Below, one piece after another: positions 5,347 to 6,882 of a DNA stretch of 20,583 bases. The position numbers and the translations under genes are program-made. Under the pieces are notes generated by a model, which was not told the origin of the DNA, did not search any database, and saw nothing but the letters and a program-made list of their open reading frames with translations. How positions within the stretch are numbered: position 1 is the stretch's first letter; each line of letters opens with the position of its first letter. The stretch comes from a virus. The stretch is from IMG/VR virus record IMGVR_UViG_3300028384_001194, positions 1-20,583 of that record. One strand, written 5' to 3'.

Positions 5347-5497
5347 TAGTAAAGGACTGGGTGATACCGTAGAGAAGATCACCAAGGCTACAGGAATTAA
5401 AAAGCTCGTTGAGAAGTATGGCCCCTCAGACTGTGGCTGTGCCCAACGACGCGACAAATTGAACGAAATGTTTCCCTACAAAAATGAAGACTCTTGA
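5330..5497 (+). CDS. Small phage protein with central CGC motif
   Basis: The 55-residue product reads MTATSNSKGLGDTVEKITKA at its start and continues TGIKKLVEKYG, then SDCGCAQRRDKLNEMFPY. This GLGDxxEKxTKATGIK...CGCxxRRDKLNxxFPY pattern is one I recognise as a recurrent small protein of phages and related elements of Bacteroidota; its function is unknown. The adjacent Cys35 and Cys37 followed by basic residues could bind metal or form a redox or dimer contact, which is inference. It overlaps the upstream gene by 17 bases and the downstream GroES-like gene by 14. Without it, 137 bases between those genes would be empty. Confidence 0.8.
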   Translation: MTATSNSKGLGDTVEKITKATGIKKLVEKYGPSDCGCAQRRDKLNEMFPYKNEDS

Positions 5498-6089
5498 CCT
5501 ATTCGTTGTCGAGCTGGACAAGCAGATCAAAGACACGATAACTACCGATGGGGGCTTGGAGCTTTACGTAGACTCCAAGTGGAACGAATTTAAGCACCGA
5601 GTGACCGAGGGTCCTGTGGTGTGCGCCCCACTCAAGCATGATACTGGCGTAGAGCCAGGCGATACCTTGTACTTTCACCACCTAGTCGTACTTAATGAGG
5701 GTCAAGTACTGACTGGCCACGAGAAGCACTTCTTGGTTCGCTATGATGCTGAACACACAATCAATAACCAAGCAATCGCATACAAGAGTGCAAAAAGTGG
5801 ACACATATATACTCTCGGCGGTTGGGCTCTTCTCACGCCTGTTGAAGAGGGTCCTGATCCTGGAGAGCAAAGCGACCTCATCGAAGTGGTCAAGCTTACC
5901 GAGTCTCCTGTTCGCAAAGCTCGCGTTGCTTTTGACGCTCCTTGGCTTGAAGAGCTTGGGATCGGTACTGGCGATGTTGTGGGCATTAAAAAGAACCGAG
6001 ACTACGAGATAACTATCGACGAGGTTAAGTACTTTAGAGTTCGAGCAGAAGATATTCTTTATGTCGAGGAAGAAGTTCACAACGATTGA
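5484..6089 (+). CDS. GroES-like co-chaperonin with two GroES-type domains
   Basis: This 201-residue protein is about twice the usual GroES length of about 97 residues. Domain 1 (about 1-105) has the start LDLFVVEL, a GG-L-E-L sequence at 23-27 in the place of the GroES mobile-loop GGIVL, VTEGPVVCAP, and the hallmark VEPGDTLYF (56-64). Domain 2 (about 113-197) starts GWALLTPVEE and ends with TGDVVGI...YEITIDEVKYFRVRAEDILYV, which closely follows the GroES C-terminal pattern (VDGKEYLLVREEDILAV). By analogy with T4 gp31 it should replace or supplement host GroES so that the chaperonin folds a phage protein, perhaps the capsid subunit. It is encoded upstream of the terminase and portal. The start overlaps the small CGC-motif gene. 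Confidence 0.82.
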   Translation: MKTLDLFVVELDKQIKDTITTDGGLELYVDSKWNEFKHRVTEGPVVCAPLKHDTGVEPGDTLYFHHLVVLNEGQVLTGHEKHFLVRYDAEHTINNQAIAYKSAKSGHIYTLGGWALLTPVEEGPDPGEQSDLIEVVKLTESPVRKARVAFDAPWLEELGIGTGDVVGIKKNRDYEITIDEVKYFRVRAEDILYVEEEVHND

Positions 6090-6351: not shown

Positions 6352-6433
6352 TTGGAAAGAAATCGTGTATCAAAAAAACAAGATAGATTTTAAGTTCTGG
6401 GATGAATCCTGGAACGAGGAGTTTGAAGATTAA
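6290..6433 (+). CDS. Overlapping small gene, 47-residue hypothetical protein
   Basis: ATG 6290 opens a frame different from the upstream gene and overlaps its last 62 bases. The product begins MGESKKPKTTAEVSLRDTLN, continues with DWKEIVYQKNKIDFKFW and ends DESWNEEFED. A Lys-rich head, a helix and an acidic, Trp-rich tail look like a real protein, and the second half lies in otherwise empty sequence. The stop touches the tRNA-like element starting at 6434. No family is recognised. The main uncertainty is the long overlap. Confidence 0.55.
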   Translation: MGESKKPKTTAEVSLRDTLNDWKEIVYQKNKIDFKFWDESWNEEFED

Positions 6434-6510
6434 CCGCGAGTATCTCCTCAAGCTTATACCTTGTAGAAAGAGTAATTGGTCACATGTGGGTTCAAGCCCC
6501 ACCTCGCGGA
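6434..6510 (+). tRNA. tRNA-like element with non-canonical lower half (isotype not assignable)
   Basis: The acceptor arms CCGCGAG (6434-6440) and CTCGCGG (6503-6509) are perfectly complementary over 7 pairs and are followed by A at 6510. The T arm GTGGG-TTCAAGC-CCCAC (6486-6502) is canonical and abuts the acceptor as in a true tRNA. The total of 77 bases is tRNA-sized. The 45 bases between (6441-6485) do not give me a convincing D arm or a 5-pair anticodon stem. TTGTAGA at 6461-6467 resembles a Tyr-type anticodon loop, but its flanks do not pair. No CCA is encoded. It may be a degenerate tRNA, an odd functional one, or a tRNA mimic. Confidence 0.45.
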
Positions 6511-6518
6511 CTTTTCGC

Positions 6519-6527
6519 TATATTTGC
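6519..6527 (+). promoter_or_regulatory. TATATTTGC promoter element, probable leaderless start
   Basis: This nine-base element fits the Bacteroidota -7 consensus TAnnTTTG and ends exactly three bases before the ATG at 6531, so transcription would begin at or next to the start codon. No clear -33 TTG is visible. The predicted transcript covers the 6531 gene, tRNA-Arg, the Cys-motif protein and the terminase. Confidence 0.65.
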
Positions 6528-6530
6528 GTC

Positions 6531-6788
6531 ATGGCTACTGTAAAAAAGACAGCACAGTATTACAAGGACAATCCTGAAGCAGCTAAGAAAAAGTCTGAAT
6601 ACGACACTGCCTTTAATGCCACTCCAAAGCAGAAAAAGATAAGAGCCCTGAGAAACAAGCTTAGGAGATTTTTCAAAAGGCGTGGCGAGGTTAAAGAGGG
6701 TGACGGAAAGGATGTCCATCACACAGGAGGAACCTCTGTAGGAACCGCCACCGTGATGCCTGCCTCTAGAAACAGAGCGATAAAATAA
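6531..6788 (+). CDS. Small basic phage protein of unknown function
   Basis: The 85-residue product starts MATVKKTAQYYKDNPEAAKK, continues KKSEYDTAFNATPKQKKIRALRN, and ends with GKDVHHTGGTSVGTATVMPASRNRAIK. The order Y-x-NPEA-KK, YDTxFN, KDxxHT and then an SRNRA ending is one I associate with a small protein seen in marine phages and large DNA viruses. The HH plus terminal N-R residues faintly recall an HNH nuclease end, but no complete HNH motif is present, so no activity is assigned. The ATG at 6531 is preferred over an in-frame start at 6402, because that extension would be read through the tRNA-like element and the promoter. Confidence 0.75.
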   Translation: MATVKKTAQYYKDNPEAAKKKSEYDTAFNATPKQKKIRALRNKLRRFFKRRGEVKEGDGKDVHHTGGTSVGTATVMPASRNRAIK

Positions 6789-6794
6789 AAATCT

Positions 6795-6868
6795 GCGCTC
6801 GTAGCTCAGCTGGATAGAGCATCTGCCTTCTAAGCAGACGGTCCCAGGTTCGAATCCTGGCGGGCGTA
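6795..6868 (+). tRNA. tRNA-Arg (anticodon TCT)
   Basis: A full cloverleaf can be drawn. The acceptor is GCGCTCG/CGGGCGT with two G-T wobbles including 1-72; the D arm is GCTC-AGCTGGATA-GAGC; the anticodon arm is TCTGC-CTTCTAA-GCAGA; the variable loop is CGGTC; the T arm is CCAGG-TTCGAAT-CCTGG; the discriminator base is A. Anticodon TCT reads AGA/AGG arginine codons, which are frequent in the basic proteins of this window. CCA is not encoded and must be added. It lies 6 bases after the 6531 gene stop and 14 bases before the next ATG, so it is processed from a longer mRNA. Confidence 0.95.
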
Positions 6869-6882
6869 CTAAATTTAATAAA

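Follow-up and report, generated by a model that had tools for sequence, protein, structure and literature searches.

A 77-base element in the window, the 20,583-base virus record analyzed here (terminase and portal genes downstream), has the two ends of a tRNA and an interior that does not fold as one, which raises the question of what it is. A first-pass annotation had described perfect acceptor and T arms with unrecognizable D and anticodon arms and had put forward a decaying tRNA, a marker of RNA processing, or a regulatory decoy. Its account of the upper half held: all seven acceptor pairs, the T arm of 5 bp with its TTCAAGC loop, the closing A at position 6510, and the 77-base length were confirmed. 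Its view that such a structure is not chance was borne out by the Rfam tRNA model (RF00005; 28.2 bits, E 0.0004 in a 251-base search), by the family covariance model R1 (94 bits, E 3.3e-23, with the window sequence in the R1 training set), and by relatives in which the whole element is kept while the flanks differ.

The lower half indeed forms no standard cloverleaf. The sole tRNA that ARAGORN reported in the window was the neighboring tRNA-Arg(UCU), and no tmRNA was called. The Rfam score lies below the gathering cut-off of 29, and the Rfam alignment skipped the D arm and opened an insertion after the anticodon arm. RNAfold (z-score, -2.0) predicted the acceptor stem, the T arm, and a further hairpin whose stem is CAAG/CUUG and whose loop is CUUAUAC. 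By ARAGORN, Rfam, and RNAfold alike, this copy has no canonical cloverleaf; a clean one found by software would, for the first-pass annotation, have marked an ordinary tRNA.

Because RNAfold gives this hairpin, the anticodon arm is recognizable after all, and its 7-base loop carries the anticodon UAU. A D-loop equivalent is also present, 3' of the anticodon arm. The 45-base interior between the acceptor and T arm consists of tRNA parts in a different order, the chain running from the acceptor 5' strand through UAU, helix a, the anticodon arm, helix a', the D-loop segment, and the T arm to the acceptor 3' strand (Table 1). Helix a is a 3-bp helix around the 4-bp anticodon arm.

Table 1. Parts of the element and its tRNA neighbor in the window
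Feature	Position	Strand	Basis
Whole element, tRNA-Ile(UAU) of the displaced-D-loop class (very probable)	6434..6510	+	R1 model and family alignment
Acceptor stem 5' strand, partner 6503-6509	6434..6440	+	7/7 pairs in window copy
UAU linker, U8 and A9 equivalents	6441..6443	+	Column position; invariance partly imposed by search patterns
Helix a 5' strand CUC, partner 6470-6472, enclosing the anticodon arm	6444..6446	+	
Anticodon arm, 4-bp stem CAAG/CUUG and loop CUUAUAC	6449..6463	+	Stem 100% paired and covarying, n=123
Anticodon UAU (Ile, AUA codon)	6455..6457	+	Loop register with U33 and A37; family anticodons Ile/Arg
Helix a 3' strand GAG	6470..6472	+	Pairing of helix a
Displaced D-loop UAAUUGGU	6473..6480	+	Base 20 tracks isotype; R15-Y48 covariation
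D-loop positions A15; G18 G19; base 20 (U)	6475; 6478-6479; 6480		
U48 equivalent, tertiary partner of A15	6485..6485	+	15-48 counts
T arm, 5 bp, loop UUCAAGC	6486..6502	+	98.4% of cells paired, n=123
Acceptor stem 3' strand and discriminator A73	6503..6510	+	A73 in 200/200 Ile-type elements with base present
Ordinary tRNA-Arg(UCU), neighbor	6795..6869	+	ARAGORN; Rfam 69.5 bits

The element begins directly after a stop codon (6431-6433), and the next start codon is at 6531, as might suit a cis-acting processing or regulatory element of an mRNA lying between two genes. We regard this explanation as very improbable: the flanking genes vary among relatives, copies are often found in tRNA arrays, and the anticodon and base 20 stay coupled, as described below. 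Upstream of the element, positions 5484-6089 match a Co-chaperonin GroES-like protein (phrog_13932, E 6e-45). Just upstream of the ATG at 6531 lies TATATTTG (6519-6531), which we take to be similar to the Bacteroidota -7 box and which presumably hints at a Bacteroidota host.

A family of phage elements with one layout

Relatives were collected by several searches. An exact search with the T-arm half found six viral contigs in which the whole element, including the interior, is kept; a gapped pattern matched 117 stretches in IMG/VR; and three broad pattern scans gave at least 120 matches each, so that their totals are lower bounds. BLAST against annotated phages revealed copies, mostly without annotation, in Streptomyces Samistivirus phages and in the crAss-like Kehishuvirus 'tikkala' and bajarodcaudo virus 1, and a copy is also found in the Microbacterium phage Magritte. 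The host range of the carrier phages covers Streptomyces, Microbacterium, and Bacteroides. Ten of 285 pattern sites were discarded as having an unconvincing acceptor or T arm, and a later collection discarded 4 of 398. At least 250 distinct phage elements have a full acceptor and T arm in the strict layout.

Conservation at UAU, CCU, C32 U33, A37, GAAAG, UAR, and GG is not evidence, because these columns were fixed by the search patterns. The pairs and couplings that we claim are at positions open in the broad scans, one of which was open over the whole 5' half.

Searches with R1 covered 98 loci and then the next 28 plus the window, leaving out L001-L118 and loci beyond L320. R1 drew a sharp line between members and background: among 73 terminase-neighbor loci, 24 had a match above 91 bits and the next best match scored 26.3. 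In 15 whole records (G001-G012 and three named phages), 18 matches had an E value of 1e-6 or better. Ten divergent members detected by covariance model at 29-71 bits follow the Ile/Arg rules, as judged by eye (L215 8849-8924, L225 3297-3371, L243 14212-14288, L205 2864-2942, L211 872-950, L232 2956-3032, L232 5066-5139, L291 257-333, L260 2702-2781, and L259 2248-2324). Some members of this divergent subclass, which is Ile or Arg only, apparently have a 5-bp anticodon stem and no GAAA segment. One sequence, found at L249 5159-5229 and identically in L257, has an intact core, a shortened linker, and broken acceptor pairing; it adjoins two intact copies and is likely a pseudogene.

The plasmid search returned one weak partial match only. 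The one match in genome_contigs, on contig JACNFT010000052.1 of a Cryomorphaceae MAG (L196), is probably phage DNA binned into the MAG, because, of six proteins tested on the contig, two have matches in phage families (polynucleotide kinase and phosphoesterase). Among 395 genomes of this phylum, the only one with the element was that seed itself. On these results, a chromosomal origin was rejected.

Alignment A1 comprises 123 of 151 distinct elements, with the window-type subgroup thinned. In these 123 sequences, 98.6% of the cells in the proposed fold are paired, and the covariation score is 0.931 (n=123), versus 0.225 for shuffles and at most 0.179 for slid controls. RNAalifold returned exactly the same fold without a supplied structure. 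The acceptor stem is paired in 97.4% of cells (n=123), and all seven of its pairs vary on both sides. Among the 250 elements listed, the first pair of helix a is formed in every one (CG 177, AU 58, GC 8, UA 7), the second in 248 with four pair types, and the third is CG throughout. The helices gave the strongest mutual-information signals; across all column pairs no further helix emerged, a signal at column 49 (gaps in all but two rows) being spurious, and a local D-stem around the displaced GG showed no covariation.

A decaying ordinary tRNA might likewise lack an ARAGORN cloverleaf and score below the Rfam cut-off. Yet one layout recurs in the 250 distinct elements listed, in Streptomyces, Microbacterium, and Bacteroides phages, with compensatory changes in every variable pair, and no part is better conserved in the window's own subgroup than the lower half. 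This covariation refutes decay, the first suggestion of the first-pass annotation, to which we now assign a negligible chance. The window element is real and intact, and it is not a relic, a chance structure, or an ordinary tRNA.

By its Rfam score and the place of its D arm, the element falls outside the canonical cloverleaf family. It is a member of a large, overlooked family of Ile/Arg phage tRNAs that standard finders mostly miss: ARAGORN calls overlap 4 of 275 copies, and the Rfam tRNA model accepts 3 of the 18 copies in 13 loci, the 18 being the strong R1 matches there. Phage tRNA inventories are thus incomplete, with displaced copies unannotated or misnamed. The Streptomyces phage Mildred21 carries at 91367-91442 (L469 295-370) a divergent displaced element with loop CUUCGAA (Arg UCG) and GGA that is annotated tRNA-Phe(gaa), apparently through a shifted reading of the loop, and the Ile(GAU) copy of EGole is annotated tRNA-Leu.

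Isotypes, base 20, and the 15-48 pair

The anticodons of the 250 distinct elements listed are Ile (201) or Arg (49), with no other. Those for Ile are UAU (138), GAU (51), and CAU (12, counted if of the Ile2 type), and those for Arg are ACG (30), UCU (10), CCU (5), UCG (3), and CCG (1). When the pattern placed no constraint on the 5' half, 195 of 195 distinct elements among the matches listed were again Ile or Arg. Patterns for other anticodons gave three matches, which we attribute to chance because none has a T arm, and a wider isotype range was rejected. The discriminator in the elements listed is A in 200 of 200 of the Ile type (one more element is cut off) and G (28), A (15), or U (6) in the Arg type. 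It is directly followed by C in at least 244 of the 250 elements, even where CCA is not encoded.

The segment after helix a' reads UAAYUGG. Read as a D-loop, its third base is position 15 and the base after GG is position 20. With a nearly all-gap column set aside, the top nonhelical coupling by mutual information joins anticodon base 35 with base 20. Among the elements listed, base 20 is A in 49 of 49 of the Arg type, and in the 201 of the Ile type it is U in 197, C in 4, and A in 0. In ordinary tRNAs of the same loci (ARAGORN calls, simple motif reading of fitting D-loops), A20 occurs in 211 of 217 for Arg and in 8 of 71 for Ile. PMC9976931 gives A20 in the D loop as the main arginine determinant. 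The association of isotype with base 20 is overwhelming in counts and weakly resolved in history, because independent pairs number 14 on the best tree and just 2 when only supported branches are counted.

Position 15 covaries with position 48. Among the elements listed, A15 occurs with U48 in 148 of 155 (C in 5, A in 2) and G15 with C48 in 76 of 95 (G in 15, U in 4); the G15 scan was run because two members found by covariance model (L291 and L259) had G15 with C48. A tree built without those columns gave 16 independent pairs on supported branches, of which, on average, 10.0 went in the predicted direction, 0.3 went in the opposite direction, and 5.8 showed no difference (median p, 0.002). This covariation is as in ordinary tRNAs, suggesting that tertiary contacts are kept despite the altered chain order.

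The features of functional tRNAs found in the family are a 7-bp acceptor, a 5-bp T arm with a UUCRA loop, a 7-base anticodon loop with U33, a coherent isotype, identity elements beyond the anticodon (A20 for Arg and A73 for Ile), and the tertiary 15-48 pair. A mere processing marker or decoy, as the first-pass annotation had also proposed, is not supported, since such a role predicts neither anticodons for Ile and Arg only, nor the switch between A20 and U20, nor the 15-48 covariation. So far as its sequence tells, the element is a tRNA by function.

Genomic setting, codon use, and function

Copies of the element lie inside tRNA arrays, in loci with up to 33 ARAGORN tRNAs. In Samistivirus phages it is directly 3' of a gene annotated as a nucleotidyltransferase (L193 2460-2981, L197 959-1480), and the same upstream gene in Mildred21 is annotated 'tRNA nucleotidyltransferase'. 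One array with the element also contains a GOLLD RNA (L209 6036-6505, minus strand, 159.5 bits).

Redundancy was assessed in 68 loci with at least six canonical anticodons, excluding CAU, which ARAGORN reports as Met. The displaced anticodon was also present on an ordinary tRNA of the locus in 4 of 69 cases, versus a shuffled mean of 9.4 (P 0.011). An ordinary ACG copy occurred in 0 of 25 loci with displaced ACG versus 13 of 43 without it. This complementarity with ordinary tRNAs is local. Three complete genomes differ in this respect: bajarodcaudo virus 1 carries no ordinary tRNA-Ile; in Kehishuvirus the displaced Ile(GAU) is accompanied by Ile(UAU) and by an Ile(AAU) of odd appearance; and in Targaryen tRNA-Ile(GAU) occurs in both forms, ordinary and displaced. 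In 25 chosen ORFs of the window, AUA accounts for 82 of 341 Ile codons and AGA for 126 of 279 Arg codons, a usage that fits the displaced Ile(UAU) and the ordinary Arg(UCU).

Taken as a whole, the element is very probably a functional phage elongator tRNA-Ile(UAU) of a distinct structural class. Helix a and the anticodon arm would form one lower limb replacing the stacked D and anticodon stems. This limb (3 bp, internal loop, 4 bp, loop) would have about the layer count of a D stem plus anticodon stem, which would place the anticodon at its normal distance. The D-loop, situated between the lower limb and the T arm, would dock on the T loop at the elbow through G18/G19, the 15-48 pair, and base 20, giving an L shape. 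The RNA would be released by RNase P and 3' processing and receive CCA, be charged by the host IleRS via UAU and A73 (Arg-type members by ArgRS), and be delivered by EF-Tu to decode AUA.

Several points count against a tRNA: the 95 elements with G15 include 15 with G48 and 4 with U48, Targaryen has redundant copies, the anticodon stem has 4 bp, and IleRS is said to require D-arm features for editing. An alternative is a charged or bound tRNA mimic acting outside translation, either as a decoy that draws off toxins or tRNA-cleaving nucleases of the host or as a synthetase competitor. It would accommodate the redundancy with ordinary tRNA-Ile(GAU) in Targaryen, and enzymes might be evaded or trapped by a displaced core; countering host anticodon nucleases has been proposed as a role of phage tRNAs (PMC10264068). 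Such a mimic is nevertheless unlikely, given that the loops keep C32, U33, and A37 with eight sense anticodons for two amino acids among the elements listed and that decoding agrees with both the match to codon use and the way in which displaced and ordinary tRNAs complement each other locally.

A functional tRNA-Ile is compatible with another idea, namely, that the selected advantage of this working translational tRNA is resistance to host tRNA-targeting defense and not codon supply. The restriction to two isotypes and the occasional redundancy suggest more than codon supply, in line with the general proposal in PMC10264068. Codon supply alone, however, explains the complementarity with the ordinary set, and we hold the defense explanation only tentatively, as a possibility somewhat on the doubtful side.

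Significance and comparison with known systems

To our knowledge, the cloverleaf arm order has been treated as universal. Our searches of the open-access PMC literature yielded no description of the displaced-D-loop topology; print elsewhere may differ. The family probably represents a second tRNA topology in nature: a viral Ile/Arg lineage with the D-loop 3' of the anticodon arm that adopts the same L shape, is charged by host IleRS or ArgRS via ordinary identity elements, and takes part in translation. Its members would be spread over phages of Bacteroidota and Actinomycetota as well as hundreds of phage contigs from the environment, and annotation would mostly have missed or misnamed them. 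If this is true, translation reads the L shape and identity points and not the cloverleaf. With these elements one could test directly which features of the tRNA core IleRS, ArgRS, EF-Tu, and the ribosome require, and they might also serve as a scaffold for orthogonal tRNAs.

With canonical bacterial and phage tRNA-Ile and tRNA-Arg, the element shares the 7-bp acceptor, the 5-bp T arm with a UUCRANY loop, the 7-base anticodon loop with U33 and A37, G18G19, R15-Y48, A20 in Arg, and A73 in Ile. Unlike them, it has no D arm between the acceptor and anticodon arm, a D-loop 3' of the anticodon arm, a 3-bp helix around that arm, and an anticodon stem of 4 bp instead of 5. In tmRNA, too, the normal D stem is missing where a lower limb joins the acceptor and T arm, and the D-loop is on the opposite side of the limb from that in the phage element. 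The phage element differs from tmRNA in having an anticodon and no tag reading frame; with an interior of just 45 bases and no ARAGORN tmRNA call, tmRNA was rejected.

Like D-armless metazoan mitochondrial tRNAs, such as tRNA-Ser(AGY), the element leaves the usual place of the D arm empty. Those tRNAs lack the D-stem or the entire D arm, according to PMC7609411, whereas the phage element keeps the D-loop motif elsewhere, coupled to position 48 and the anticodon; with that motif 3' of the anticodon arm, the mitochondrial type was rejected. An unusual order of parts is also seen in the circularly permuted tRNA genes of algae and an archaeon, in which, as PMC3978253 describes, the gene carries its 5' and 3' halves in exchanged positions and yields a mature RNA with the normal cloverleaf. 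The acceptor strands of the phage element instead sit at both gene ends, which rules out a permuted gene, and it is the order of the mature chain itself that differs. Finally, tRNA-Sec, tRNA-Pyl, and allo-tRNAs are natural tRNAs with a nonstandard secondary structure (PMC7609411). An allo-tRNA or tRNA-Sec was rejected, the acceptor branch being 7/5 and not 12-13 bp as 8/4, 9/3, or 8/5. These tRNAs alter stem and loop lengths and keep the order of the arms, whereas the phage element keeps 7/5 and alters the order.
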